This document shows, piece after piece, positions 1-5,140 of a stretch of DNA of 5,980 nucleotides; position 1 is the first letter of the stretch; each line of letters opens with the position of its first letter. Below the pieces are notes generated by a model. That model saw only the letters and a list, made by a program, of their open reading frames with translations, was not told the DNA's origin and ran no database searches. This stretch comes from Planctomycetaceae bacterium (lineage in GTDB: Bacteria; Planctomycetota; Planctomycetia; Planctomycetales; Planctomycetaceae). A program made the position numbers and the translations under genes. The stretch covers positions 1 through 5,980 of the forward strand of contig JAJDEK010000270.1 of the NCBI GenBank assembly GCA_029259875.1. Direction: 5' to 3'.

Positions 1-3000
1 AATTTACTTGCTGTGAGTTTGTGTCTGGTAACCAAACCGGAGGGCAACCGTGTTCTTCAAATAGTCGGGCTAGATGCAGATGGCAAGTGAAGAACAGAAA
101 TTGCTGTCCTTTGTTTGCAACGGTAGTTAATGTTTCAATCGCTGCAATCGTCCGGTTCTGGTCAAAATTCACAAGTACATCATCCAGAATCATAGGCAGC
201 TCCACACCGTTATTACGAAAACGTTCTACCATTGCCAGTCGGATCGCTAAAAATAATTGCTCACGTGTGCCACTACTGAGTTCACTGACTGTAAATGTCT
301 GCCCATGCTGATCGTCAATTTTTGGAAACTGTTCCCCCAATGGAGTCCAAATGTTTTTGTATTTCCCATTCGTTAATTGACTCAAGTATTCAGAAGCAAT
401 CGCGAGGGTCTCTGGTTGGCAGGTGCGTTCGTATTCTGAACGTAATTGACCCAGACCTATTGAGGAAGTTTCTGCTGAAAGCCATTTCTCACTCGCCTGT
501 TTGATTTGTTCACGAATTTGCTCTCGCTCAAAACGTAAATGGGCTGAGCTGCGATCGGTTTTGGCATTCTGATAATCCTGTTTCAAGCGGCCCATATTTT
601 CCGCGGTCGTAACCAGATCGCTTTCAATGTCTTCCAGTTCCAAATTCAGCATTTCCAAATGCTCGGTATTTTCGTCTGGGTTGAAATTCAATAGATCTTC
701 TTCGACGATCGCTATTTCTTTTTCGGATCGACTGATATTTTCTAATTCGACCTGTGCGTCTTCTAATACATTTTCAAGCTGAATTCGTTCTTCTAGTGAT
801 GATGCCCGTTGGATGAACTCTTCTCGGTTTGCCACTCCTCCACGAATCAATAGTCCCGAACATTTGTAATTTAATTCTTCAATTTTCAACTCCAGGACAT
901 CTGACTCTTGGCGCAGTCTCTGCTCTTCTTTGCGCAAGCGATTACGTTCTTTCTGATGTTCGGAGAATGTTTCTATCTCGTGTTCCCATTCGGCAACCAC
1001 TTCGAATGGTTTAGCATAATCATGATGCGTGCGTCCCATACGCTGGCCCAGATCACGTACTCGACTGAAAAATGAGTTAACAATTTCGCCTAACGGTTTG
1101 ATACGAATTTTTTCCTGCTGGAATTTGTCAGCGTATAGGTTTGCGTTGGAAACATGCTGCCACATTTGAAATGCTTCATTGATTTTCAGTGTCTCCGTCA
1201 ACCCTAGTTGTTTGAGGCATCCACACCACTCATGCCGCTTACTACTAAACTGACGCTGAATTTCTTGAGATCGGTTTCTTAGTTTCACCAAAAACTGACG
1301 GGTTTTCTGCACCTGATCTTGCGCTACTTTTAACTGTTCCAGTTCACTGATTTTCAGAGCCAATTCATGCAGAAGATCAGTGCGCAGGATATTTTCGTCG
1401 TTGAAATTCAACTCAGGGATGTTTTCCCGATAGCGGTCAGTCGTCAGTGAATGTCCTTCAGTAACTAGCTTTAAAGAGAAGTATTCGTCTTCTAGCAGGC
1501 GTTCGATCTCTTGTCGCGTCTCTCTTAAATGAACGTCTAATGCCCAACTCTTATCCTGTAAGTCTTCGACTTGATCATCGATATCAACTTCAAAATGTTT
1601 TTTGATCGCCCATGTCGTCCCACCTAAGAACAATCCTGTTAAACAGTAAATCAAGCCGATGAAAACGACATCTGTGACTCCGCGCCAAGAGCCGGCCATG
1701 AGTAATAGTATCCCGGCTAGTGCAAAACCAAATAGTGTCTTTTTGGCCCAACTGGGAATCCGGGAATGAGTTTGCAGCCGCGCCAACTGTTCCTTGACGG
1801 CTTCCTGTCGAATTAAACATTCTGACTCTCGAACCCGTAATTGGCTGAGGCGTTCCAAATGTTTCATTCGGTCGCGGGCTCTTTGTAATTCTTCATCGAT
1901 GGAATGTCCATTTAACAAGCGATTAGATTGTTCCTGAAGTTGAGCTAGTGTTTGTTGGTATTTACGGGAAACTCTTTTATATCGTTGGTGCGCGTTTTTA
2001 CGTTTTCCTAAAGCGAGCCGATACTCGCGAGCTGCATTGATGAGGCGTTGGTTGTTGTCGGGCGTTGTTTTAATATGACTGATATCATCGAGAGTCTGAT
2101 TCGGGGCTAGATATTTTTGTAACGTGAGTTCTGCATCACGTGCCTGGAGTTCTCCTGCTTTGTACTGACGTTCCAGATCGGCTATCCAACTTTTCTGGTC
2201 AACCAGGCTTTGTATATTTGGGGCAAAGTTCAGTAGATCATTGTCTAATTCATACTGTTCTGCTTCAGTTCGTACTCGTTTAAGATCTGCTTTAAGCTCT
2301 AGCAGTTTTTCTTTAATTTGTTTTAGTTCCCGGTCATAGTCATTAAGTAAAGCGACGCCACCTTCTGGAAAATCATGGACAACCGGAAGTTGCCTCAATT
2401 TCTGATGTAGAGCTTGTACTTCCTGCCAAGGCTTCCAGACACGGTCGAGAAAGCGATGTCCTCGGATTTGATATTGTAGACCTTCTCTGCGTTTTTTGAG
2501 GCTGTCTGATTCCGCTCTTAGCTTCTGCAAATCATCGGGTAAATTGAAGAATCGCTGTGTTTGCTGTTCTAAGTCCGCAAGTTTTGCATTCACATCATCG
2601 AGTTTTTGATAAAGATCGACCAGCTTTCCAGTCTTTAAGTCGGAACTCAAGAGCTGCTGTTGTGATTGAGTTAGTTGACTGGAAGCATCGAGTATCGCTT
2701 GACCTTCTGGCCCCAAAGAGAGCCCATAAATATGTTGGGCAACTTGATCACCGTGTAGCGTTCCCAGTTCCTGCAATTCATTTAAGCCTATCGCAAATAC
2801 GTTTTCAAAAACGTTTTCGTTAACCCCCGCATGCAGAGATGTGAGCAGGTCTTGAGTCGAAATTCCCCGCGTTTCTCCTTGAAATGAAAAGTGACCTCTG
2901 ACTTTGGAATTAGTCTGTCGACGGATTTCGTAGAGTTGACCTTTATGTTTAATATCCAGCAAGGCTGACCAGGGAGTCGAATCTGAAGCACGGGAATGCT

Positions 3001-3172
3001 CACGAATTTCCTCTGCCTGGAAACCGTAAAGGATACCGCGAATCATTCGCATTAAAGTCGATTTGCCTGTTTCATTGGGTCCATAAAAGACATTGACTCC
3101 CGCGTTGAGGGGCGCAAGGTTCAGATCGTTCCAATTCCCAAATTCGTCGACATGGATTCTGTTTATTTTCAT
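1..3172 (-). CDS. YhaN-type SbcC/Rad50-like AAA ATPase with central membrane hairpin (3' end beyond window)
   Basis: The frame is open from an ATG at 3172 to the window edge, giving 1057 codons with no stop; only the extreme C-terminus is missing. The product is a large Rad50/SbcC-like ATPase of the YhaN type, expected to couple ATP binding to movement of long coiled coils together with a nuclease-like partner. Visible parts in order: an N-terminal FGNW segment; Walker A GPNETGKST (residues 31-39); long Gln/Glu/Lys/Arg-rich coiled coil (about 200-470); two hydrophobic helices split by a short polar turn (about 478-523); a second coiled-coil arm (about 530-920); signature LSSGTREQLFLAIRLA (about 965-980); Walker B LPMILDD (992-998); and an H-loop histidine, H1031, in FFTCHLH. 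No CxxC zinc hook is seen; the membrane hairpin sits where the hook would be, as is known for YhaN proteins. The start is supported by GAGGAA 8 nt upstream and by the ATGA overlap with the preceding gene. Family assignment is secure; biological role is not. Confidence 0.93.
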   Translation of the reverse strand, partial: MKINRIHVDEFGNWNDLNLAPLNAGVNVFYGPNETGKSTLMRMIRGILYGFQAEEIREHSRASDSTPWSALLDIKHKGQLYEIRRQTNSKVRGHFSFQGETRGISTQDLLTSLHAGVNENVFENVFAIGLNELQELGTLHGDQVAQHIYGLSLGPEGQAILDASSQLTQSQQQLLSSDLKTGKLVDLYQKLDDVNAKLADLEQQTQRFFNLPDDLQKLRAESDSLKKRREGLQYQIRGHRFLDRVWKPWQEVQALHQKLRQLPVVHDFPEGGVALLNDYDRELKQIKEKLLELKADLKRVRTEAEQYELDNDLLNFAPNIQSLVDQKSWIADLERQYKAGELQARDAELTLQKYLAPNQTLDDISHIKTTPDNNQRLINAAREYRLALGKRKNAHQRYKRVSRKYQQTLAQLQEQSNRLLNGHSIDEELQRARDRMKHLERLSQLRVRESECLIRQEAVKEQLARLQTHSRIPSWAKKTLFGFALAGILLLMAGSWRGVTDVVFIGLIYCLTGLFLGGTTWAIKKHFEVDIDDQVEDLQDKSWALDVHLRETRQEIERLLEDEYFSLKLVTEGHSLTTDRYRENIPELNFNDENILRTDLLHELALKISELEQLKVAQDQVQKTRQFLVKLRNRSQEIQRQFSSKRHEWCGCLKQLGLTETLKINEAFQMWQHVSNANLYADKFQQEKIRIKPLGEIVNSFFSRVRDLGQRMGRTHHDYAKPFEVVAEWEHEIETFSEHQKERNRLRKEEQRLRQESDVLELKIEELNYKCSGLLIRGGVANREEFIQRASSLEERIQLENVLEDAQVELENISRSEKEIAIVEEDLLNFNPDENTEHLEMLNLELEDIESDLVTTAENMGRLKQDYQNAKTDRSSAHLRFEREQIREQIKQASEKWLSAETSSIGLGQLRSEYERTCQPETLAIASEYLSQLTNGKYKNIWTPLGEQFPKIDDQHGQTFTVSELSSGTREQLFLAIRLAMVERFRNNGVELPMILDDVLVNFDQNRTIAAIETLTTVANKGQQFLFFTCHLHLARLFEEHGCPPVWLPDTNSQQVN

Positions 3173-3186
3173 GAGTGAGCTTCCTC
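3169..3186 (-). promoter_or_regulatory. ATGA stop/start overlap with internal ribosome binding site
   Basis: The TGA stop of the nuclease-like gene (3171-3169) overlaps the ATG start of the ATPase gene (3172-3170) in the four-base string ATGA. A GAGGAA motif at 3186-3181, inside the end of the upstream gene, is spaced 8 nt from the ATG. This arrangement is typical of translational coupling between subunits of one complex, and it fixes the ATPase start. Confidence 0.8.
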
Positions 3187-4479
3187 ATCCGAAGAGAGAT
3201 TGAGCCAATCGTGTCCATTTCGGATGGCTGTATTAAAGATGCGTTGCTCATTCATATTGTGAATCATTGAATTCATGCGGTGAGACCAAATTTGGTCAAG
3301 ATGAGCAGCGTGTGTGAGCAATTGCTTGAGTGGTGCATCTGTTTCCGTTTGGAATGCTGCAAGCTGATCCTGATAGCGTACAACTAAAGATGCCGGCTTG
3401 CCGATGAATGCGGAAGCGCCGCTTTGCAGTTCAAAAGATTGTTCGATATGAACTGGCAGCTGGTCTATCATTTCGTTCGCGATTTCCAAACCTAAGTCGC
3501 TTTGGTTCTTGAATGTGCTCAGAGACTGAAATAGCTCACCCAATCCTTCCAATTGCCAACGCACCATCCATACTTTTTCGAAAACACCATTTTTATGGGA
3601 AAAGAGAGCTTCTCTCATTAGATGCTTGAGTTGTTTTCGAGAGAGTTCCGGATCCAGCTTGAGTTCGATCATTAACCAGCGTACGGTGGCGATTTTCAAC
3701 AGGTGGAGTTCCAGTTGCTCCTCTGGTTTGATCGTTACTAAAGTGACACCATTATTTTCGCATTCGTCGAAATTAAGTCCCTGAGCTACTCCAGGATGAT
3801 GGGCAACCCCTGGTTCCATTTCGAACGTGTATCGCTGAGTTCCTTTACACAACGCAAGATAATCGACACTCTCTTCTTCAATTTGATCGGATAAGATTTG
3901 CGATGATGATCGCTCTAACTCTGAACTCTGCTCAGTAAGCTCTCTCATTTCGTTGGCAGGAATAATACCAATAGAAATTGCACGTTGATCGTGTTTATTG
4001 AACAACTGATTTCGCTGGTTCAATTTTAACGATTGTTGCGTTTTGTAATGAGAGGGTTCCAGAACTTGTAACGTCGCTATGGTTTCCTCAGCGCGCATGA
4101 TGTCGAGTATGTCATGATCTTGTGGTGAGAGAAATGTGACGTTGCCCGGCCAACTGAATTGAGCGTGCCAGACGCTCAAAGGATCATGCAGACCTGGAAG
4201 GATAAAGACCTGAATATTTTCAGATGCCAATTGTTGTAAACCATCTACGAGTGCAATTTTCGCGCGGATGCTATGATCTTCTTCAAACAGGGTATTTCCC
4301 GTCAGTAACAGAAAGTCAATTTCATGTTCAAGAGAAGCCTTGACCACCTGCTCGAAAGTTGTCAGCGTACAATCTTCGAGAATGATTTGTGCTTCATCGG
4401 CAACCTCCCCTATTCCTTGAGGTTGATGGTCAAGATGCAGGTTACTAGCGTGAATGAACCGGGTCGGTACGAATGACAT
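3169..4479 (-). CDS. SbcD/Mre11/YhaO-like metallophosphatase homologue, catalytic residues lost
   Basis: The product is 436 aa and resembles the SbcD/Mre11/YhaO exonuclease subunit that partners SbcC/Rad50/YhaN ATPases. The fold signature is clear: FIHASNLHLD (8-17), DFLLLTGNTLF (55-65), VFILPGLHDP (91-100), VDYLALCKGT (205-214) and HHPGVAQGLNFDE (227-239), followed by a helical C-terminal region. Working family members read DLH, GD, GNHD and GHxH at these places. Here they read N13-L-H15, G61-N62, G96-L97-H98-D99 and C211-K-G-T214. The usual histidine after the I-x-I-G strand (about 173-175) is also absent (IGIIPANE). The two Mn ions would therefore probably not bind, and nuclease activity is unlikely. 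The frame is intact over the full family length, which argues against simple decay. The ATG at 4479 is preferred over a TTG 24 bases upstream because AAGGAG lies 6 nt before it. The stop overlaps the ATPase start (ATGA), so the two are probably made together as a complex. Confidence 0.88.
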   Translation of the reverse strand: MSFVPTRFIHASNLHLDHQPQGIGEVADEAQIILEDCTLTTFEQVVKASLEHEIDFLLLTGNTLFEEDHSIRAKIALVDGLQQLASENIQVFILPGLHDPLSVWHAQFSWPGNVTFLSPQDHDILDIMRAEETIATLQVLEPSHYKTQQSLKLNQRNQLFNKHDQRAISIGIIPANEMRELTEQSSELERSSSQILSDQIEEESVDYLALCKGTQRYTFEMEPGVAHHPGVAQGLNFDECENNGVTLVTIKPEEQLELHLLKIATVRWLMIELKLDPELSRKQLKHLMREALFSHKNGVFEKVWMVRWQLEGLGELFQSLSTFKNQSDLGLEIANEMIDQLPVHIEQSFELQSGASAFIGKPASLVVRYQDQLAAFQTETDAPLKQLLTHAAHLDQIWSHRMNSMIHNMNEQRIFNTAIRNGHDWLNLSSDEEAHS

Positions 4480-4493
4480 GGCAGACTCCTTTC
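4477..4493 (-). promoter_or_regulatory. Ribosome binding site that fixes the nuclease-like gene start
   Basis: On the minus strand GGAAAGGAG (ending at 4486) precedes the ATG at 4479-4477 by 6 nt, a strong Shine-Dalgarno match. An in-frame TTG at 4503 would add eight residues (MCGGKESA), but it would place this site inside the coding region and lacks a comparable site of its own. The ATG is therefore taken as the start. Confidence 0.75.
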
Positions 4494-4536
4494 CGCCGCA
4501 CAACCTGCTAAATTGATGATCTACATGACTACATTC

Positions 4537-4709: not shown

Positions 4710-4727
4710 AAATTAGTAAACTAATTT
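4710..4727 (-). terminator. Weak AT-only hairpin over the response regulator stop codon
   Basis: AAATTAG and CTAATTT form a perfect 7-bp inverted repeat around a 4-base loop. The TAG stop of the response regulator lies inside the stem. On the minus strand the stem is followed only by a very short T stretch. The low GC content makes it a poor intrinsic terminator; it could be a 3' end stabiliser or chance. Confidence 0.25.
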
Positions 4728-5140
4728 CCCAACCAGGAGGGAATATCCGGATCTTGGTAAGTGTCTAGCAAAGCGTGAGATACCGTCGAAACTAACTCCT
4801 GCCGTTTGACTGGTTTAGACAGAACATCGTAAGCATTCACGGCGCTGGCATCCTGTCGTAGTTCATCGGTTGCATCAGCCGTAATCAGAATACAGGGCAG
4901 AATTGCATTGATTTCCTTCATAATGCGCACGGCTTCTAATCCTGTTAAAACGTCCATGTGCATATCCAGCAAAACAATGTCTACCTGGACCTGCTCTACA
5001 AGTTCGATAGCCTCTTCACCTGATTCCGCTTCAAACAGTTTGAAATAAGGGTTCAGGAGCTCTTTCAGGACATCACGGAATCCAGGATCATCATCGGCGA
5101 TCAGTAATTGATAAGGAGTCTGAGATTTGGCAATGACCAT
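4721..5140 (-). CDS. Single-domain CheY-like response regulator
   Basis: The product is 139 aa and is almost entirely a receiver (REC) domain. Key residues are all present: the acidic cluster D16-D17-D18 after LLIA, phospho-acceptor D59 in VLLDMHMD, T87 in ILITAD, the aromatic switch residue Y104, and K109 in VLSKPV. There is no DNA-binding or enzymatic output domain; after the last helix only a short tail ending IPSWLGN remains. It should work as a cytoplasmic phosphorylation-dependent partner protein or phosphate shuttle. No histidine kinase is in the window, so its input is unknown. The start ATG at 5140 has only a weak GAG-containing site about 7 nt upstream. It is separated from the downstream pair by 241 bp and from the upstream synthase by 554 bp, so it is probably transcribed alone. 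The DMHM...LTGLE and INAILPCILITAD wording resembles, from memory, receivers abundant in planctomycetes. Confidence 0.92.
   Translation of the reverse strand: MVIAKSQTPYQLLIADDDPGFRDVLKELLNPYFKLFEAESGEEAIELVEQVQVDIVLLDMHMDVLTGLEAVRIMKEINAILPCILITADATDELRQDASAVNAYDVLSKPVKRQELVSTVSHALLDTYQDPDIPSWLGN

Follow-up and report, generated by a model that had tools for sequence, protein, structure and literature searches.

The gene pair and its altered metal site

The locus described here lies in a contig from a Planctomycetaceae bacterium (GenBank assembly GCA_029259875.1, JAJDEK010000270.1), all 5,980 nucleotides of which were analyzed and are called the window, and it carries on the reverse strand the gene for an Mre11-like protein followed by the gene for a Rad50-like ATPase. 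The first gene (3169..4479), recognized by its open reading frame, predicted Mre11 fold, and profile match, encodes 436 residues between an ATG start and a TGA stop and is termed pseudo-Mre11 (SbcD/YhaO-like). Its position, frame, start, and stop had been given correctly in an earlier note made from the letters alone, and the ribosome site claimed there is present as a Shine-Dalgarno-like GGAAAGGAG 5′ of the ATG (4486..4494). The stop codon overlaps the ATPase start in an ATGA (3169..3172). The ATPase (2..3172, reverse strand; AAA_27, PF13514 E 1e-15, 58.3 bits against a cut-off of 22) has 1057 residues present and a frame open at the edge; the C terminus is lost at the contig end, the window spanning the entire contig, and four Gimesia relatives extend ∼190 to 360 residues further. 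Its translation contains the Walker A motif GPNETGKS (3059..3082), the ATP-binding cassette signature LSSGTREQ (257..280), and the Walker B motif PMILDD (179..196), the head expected of a Rad50/YhaN partner. The tight coupling to an intact ATPase proposed in the earlier note thus stands for the overlap and the motifs, whereas the end of the ATPase is missing. A hydropathy scan and the translation predict a mid-protein membrane segment (1625..1732), probably a hairpin, of which the second helix alone passes the threshold here. No CxxC zinc hook was found in this ATPase.

Alignment with intact YhaO relatives of this genus and family places N13, H15, N62, L97, H98, P174, K212, and T214 of pseudo-Mre11 at the eight site positions that normally read D, H, D, N, H, H, H, and H, so that two of eight are kept. 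N13 (AAC, 4441..4443) replaces the first Asp ligand of the DxH motif, the His of which remains as H15 (4435..4437); N62 (AAT, 4294..4296) replaces the Asp of GD; L97-H98 (CTG, CAT; 4186..4191) turn GNHD into GLHD; P174 (3958..3960) stands in the LHT histidine column; and CKGT at residues 211 to 214 (TGT AAA GGA ACT, 3838..3849) replaces GHxH. Codons and alignment therefore bear out the alterations at N13, N62, L97, and CKGT listed in the earlier note, yet the histidines of DxH and GNHD are kept. Only the window and the two relatives closest to it have H15, which may be a regained histidine, because the other 13 Gimesia loci have R15. The excerpted text of one paper describes seven metal ligands in the Mre11 fold, conserved between DP1 and Mre11, and calls H85 of Mre11 essential for nuclease activity (PMC4996933); in Pyrococcus furiosus Mre11, His173, His206, and His208 are named in the part seen of another (PMC3175470). 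By this standard of seven ligands plus a catalytic histidine, the window copy, with two of eight, does not have the sequence of an active enzyme.

Pseudo-Mre11 belongs to the Mre11/SbcD/YhaO family by homology: its family profile aligned with the intact YhaO profile at a probability of 100 and E 4.8e-52 (hhalign). We use YhaO-YhaN, a name also found in public records, for what we take to be the pairs of an Mre11-like nuclease and an AAA_27 ATPase. The curated Mre11 and SbcD models left pseudo-Mre11 under their cut-offs, the best Mre11 model giving 16 bits against 500. The SbcD model TIGR00619, which passed its cut-off in 8 of 14 control genomes, did so in 1 of 23 genomes searched, none of them Gimesia, and there not by the pseudo-Mre11 gene. 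One TIGR00619 match (C307) was set aside as a metallophosphatase with a hydrophobic N terminus and intact GNHD and GHTH motifs, and other Gimesia genomes gave weak TIGR00619 matches away from the pair, none of which matched the Mre11 profile. In the window's own genome (74% complete), no second Mre11-like protein was returned by the intact-YhaO profile at a threshold as loose as E 10 or by the gene itself as query. The PADLOC defense models did not match pseudo-Mre11 and matched the ATPase only partially (best, LmuB over residues 1 to 122, E 1.6e-7); filing the pair with Lamassu (LmuB) or other Rad50-like anti-phage systems was rejected, as PADLOC did not support both subunits.

Graded loss of the site among relatives

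Loss of the site is graded and extends beyond Gimesia. Each of the 16 Gimesia loci read, among them the window, has N13 and N62, a result that agrees with the earlier view that they are not sequencing errors; a Gimesia-like metagenome protein (P0006) is the exception with H13, and five Gimesia loci (site NRNESTKT) keep none of the eight residues. An order-level search covered 150 genomes, all in Planctomycetaceae. Of these, 119 gave a match better than E 1e-78, a strength not attained by any of the intact copies read (best 7.5e-73, L217); eight genomes with weaker matches were read and were also pseudo (a hand count), 5 had no match at 1e-5, and 18 had intact copies only or were not resolved. 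Among 170 genomes from the family, 67 had intact YhaO-type genes, scored by a best E below 1e-90, a count that excludes seven further matches at 1e-45 to 1e-41. Both surveys scored some first-look candidates per genome, so the absences are lower bounds. Among 17 Gimesia genomes, the pseudo form was found in 16 (the other is 76% complete), the intact form in one (G032), and the pseudo form was the sole family member found in 15. Intact genes occur as separate paralogues in some genomes that hold the pseudo form. One genome (G088) holds three Mre11-Rad50-like pairs, one intact, one fully dismantled, and a very divergent third (L130, L131, and L218), the ATPase of the third being without a membrane segment.

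A half-dismantled group comprises relatives from other families of the class, with named records from Rhodopirellula, Stieleria, Pirellula, Blastopirellula, Aeoliella, and others; the two records looked up both fall in Pirellulales. Among 96 distinct rows of this Pirellulales type, the D-H-D residues and the second GHxH histidine were kept in 65, the first GHxH histidine in none, the GNHD asparagine in 3, and the GNHD histidine in 1. When 66 rows from a scan favoring the first Asp were removed, D-H-D...H was kept in 15 of 30, and 0 of 80 Planctomycetaceae-type rows keep it. Individual ligands are assigned here to one metal or the other by superfamily knowledge: the D-H-D residues and the second GHxH histidine would presumably bind one metal, and the Asn and His that were lost would bind the second. 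The site is intact in all 15 copies read from other Planctomycetota classes and in all 10 (with 8/8 residues) from Paenibacillus and genera like it, in contrast to the 0 to 5 residues kept in the pseudo lineage.

A tree built without the eight site columns separated 14 intact from 96 pseudo rows (Shimodaira-Hasegawa-like approximate likelihood ratio test support, SH-aLRT, 99). The pseudo side divides into a half-type clade (27 rows, support 100), 15 rows of which keep D-H-D...H, and a Planctomycetaceae-type clade (69 rows, support 99); one half-type row (L218) derives from a Planctomycetaceae genome. This was a quick, unrooted tree with some long branches, for which 12 of the 122 rows, near-duplicate or partial ones, had been dropped. 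The earlier note had held that close relatives with intact motifs would point to recent decay; there are none among the 96 rows of the pseudo side. We read the series as one of loss because the intact form is the widespread one, the tree itself giving no direction.

Partner ATPases, selection, and predicted fold

Of 150 pseudo loci, 136 have an ATPase gene 3′ of the subunit gene, as do 37 of the 39 intact loci. Two of the 14 pseudo loci counted as unpaired (L117 and L183) in fact carry an overlapping ATPase frame that falls outside the gap limit, and in nine the sequence stops close to the gene. Orphan pseudo-Mre11 genes were seen in three planctomycete metagenome-assembled genomes (L281 at 443-2023, 3/8 residues; L298 at 5393-6901, 2/8; L284 at 973-2460, 2/8), and in another (L214) the neighboring ATPase is split over several frames, perhaps by assembly error or as a broken gene. 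In a separate ATPase tree (FastTree), which included about one-third of the pseudo pairs from L220 onward, the partners of pseudo copies formed one side of a branch with support 98. A mid-protein membrane segment, often two neighboring ones, is predicted in 129 of 130 of these partners, and none of 133 partner ATPases, a set that includes three intact loci counted as pseudo, has CxxC in residues 300 to 800. Predicted membrane segments are also present in ATPases from Paenibacillus and several other Planctomycetota classes, and are often absent from those of intact YhaO-type pairs in Planctomycetota (L128, L130, L140, and L141). A C-terminal DUF4332 was detected in the two Gimesia ATPases scanned (L124, 9652-13398; L126, 6270-10484), the latter also scoring with the helix-hairpin-helix model HHH_5, and DUF4332-like sequence is visible in all four Gimesia ATPases compared, the window copy being cut before this region. 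The eight scanned ATPases of other genera or intact pairs were without DUF4332.

The SbcC model TIGR00618 gave no match in 16 Gimesia genomes at 1e-10, though it is blunt, matching 11 of 14 known genomes and exceeding its cut-off in one only. No gene family recurs beside the pair across genera (phmmer, E 1e-8, open reading frames of at least 90 residues), and a conserved third gene or effector was accordingly rejected. A single-domain response regulator lies upstream of the pair (window 4721-5140); all six of the Gimesia loci compared have it in this place, and none of the other genera compared does.

The ratio of nonsynonymous to synonymous substitution rates (dN/dS), a check proposed in the earlier note, was obtained across Gimesia for 16 of 120 pairs and indicates purifying selection: it was 0.06 to 0.40 in eight pairs with dS < 0.25 and 0.11 to 0.18 in the next eight listed. 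Residues 1 to 118 and 204 to 262, within which the former nuclease motifs lie, had dN below that of the capping and C-terminal parts in all six pairs split by region, which is not how a leftover gene is expected to look. An AlphaFold2 model (predicted local distance difference test score, pLDDT, 79, with disordered stretches) and structure comparison predict a nuclease-plus-capping Mre11 fold. Helices are predicted at residues 365 to 426, which few structural alignments reach (root-mean-square deviations of 7.7 to 8.7 to 3av0, 3tho, and 6s85).

A probable non-cutting subunit and its alternatives

On the basis of these results we consider it probable, at roughly 60%, that pseudo-Mre11, with six of eight residues gone from its two-metal nuclease site, acts as a structural, non-cutting subunit in a complex with a Rad50-like ATPase, for which a membrane location is predicted. 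The earlier proposal of a dismantled Mre11/SbcD-like subunit in a Rad50-like complex is supported, its non-cutting character being judged from sequence. A gene under selection that lacks most metal residues and stands beside a Rad50-like ATPase suggests that the pair is likely a non-cutting DNA clamp. In such a complex, ATP would bring the two ATPase heads together as a dimer, a pseudo-Mre11 dimer would be bound to them, and the assembly would close around DNA. With a predicted membrane segment midway along the coiled coils and no CxxC zinc hook, ATP turnover would tether DNA, or hand it over, at the membrane uncut. The added DUF4332 region (helix-hairpin-helix-like) could give the Gimesia ATPases an extra grip on DNA.

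Several observations weigh against this interpretation. H15 and H98 are still present in the window copy, and the GNHD histidine is kept in 16 of 80 Planctomycetaceae-type copies. Three unpaired pseudo loci (L281, L284, and L298) have ∼5 kb downstream with no ATPase match, the frames there having been read one by one in L281 and L298, and among 133 ATPases the signature pattern was missed in nine and the Walker B pattern in six. Of 29 ATPases from intact pairs, 15 have the membrane segment as well, so that it likely predates the site loss. Two dN/dS values are comparatively high (0.40 for L002-L003 and 0.27 for L006-L007). The AlphaFold2 alignment was shallow (38 rows, including one intact protein), and VIA flags residues past 359 as barely tested, so that the predicted C-terminal Rad50-binding helices rest on few high-deviation alignments and are weakly supported.

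Recent decay or sequencing error would find its best argument in N13 and N62, each one base from an Asp codon, and is practically ruled out by the same two residues in every Gimesia locus, the tree, and the purifying selection. The complex might instead still lead to cutting through a separate nuclease encoded elsewhere, with the dead subunit as a docking adaptor. The pseudo gene is kept where SbcC is unmatched and intact YhaO mostly absent in Gimesia, so that end processing, if any, would come from elsewhere; since no family recurs beside the pair, we regard this as unlikely, while giving it more weight than the other alternatives. Less likely again is a role away from DNA, in which the pair would be a membrane-anchored SMC-like ATPase with a pseudo-phosphoesterase serving the envelope or cell division. 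The nearly universal membrane segment and the lack of any recurring neighbor family, repair or other, would suit that role, but DUF4332, the HHH_5 score, and a fold and gene order matching Mre11-Rad50 relatives speak for DNA. Slightly more improbable still is residual or altered catalysis, in which a pocket of N13, H15, N62, H98, and K212 would bind one metal or none and hydrolyze a phosphoester. The two histidines of the window copy and the half-site in over half of the half-type tree rows fit this idea; against it, the fold uses seven ligands and the catalytic histidine according to the excerpted PMC4996933, and the window copy keeps one ligand and that histidine, while five Gimesia loci keep nothing of the site.

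Compared with known systems, the pair resembles YhaO-YhaN in having homologous subunits, identical gene order, and a predicted membrane segment as in the ATPases by Paenibacillus-type copies (L289-L297); it differs in its site residues and in the separate branch of its ATPases. It shares with SbcCD/Mre11-Rad50 the predicted fold and a two-subunit operon, and differs in the lost metal site, the missing CxxC, scores below the Mre11/SbcD cut-offs, and the unmatched SbcC model. The nearest precedent for a non-nucleolytic structural subunit, by analogy, is the B-subunit of eukaryotic replicative DNA polymerases, in which, in the portions seen of two papers, a scaffold role is described for an Mre11-like domain without its former residues (PMC4996933 and PMC10721889); these B-subunits differ in carrying an OB domain and in having a polymerase, not a Rad50-like ATPase, as partner. 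Mimivirus R555 likewise has an Mre11-like domain with replaced site residues, two being named in the excerpt seen, but there the subunits are fused (PMC3175470). Among the open-licence papers returned by literature searches, no title or abstract opening described such a pair.

More tentatively, and at slightly less than even odds, the lineage of Planctomycetaceae and Pirellulales may have made an Mre11-Rad50-type machine permanently nuclease-free by stepwise loss while selection preserved the fold, leaving a purely mechanical, membrane-anchored DNA clamp. The ligands of one metal and the catalytic histidine would have gone first (Asn and His of GNHD, with the first histidine of GHxH), giving the Pirellulales type with its often kept D-H-D...H half-site, and the ligands of the other metal next, giving the Planctomycetaceae type. 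Some public records label these proteins as "exonuclease SbcCD subunit D" or as "metallophosphoesterase", activities that the sequence does not support, and such labels call for caution. Non-cutting roles of Mre11-Rad50, such as tethering, sensing, and clamping, have mostly been studied through point mutants. If our reading is true, this lineage, in which the cutting site is lost by degrees while the fold, partner, and pairing are kept and intact paralogues in some genomes serve as built-in controls, would offer a naturally occurring separation-of-function series for what Mre11-Rad50 does independently of its nuclease.
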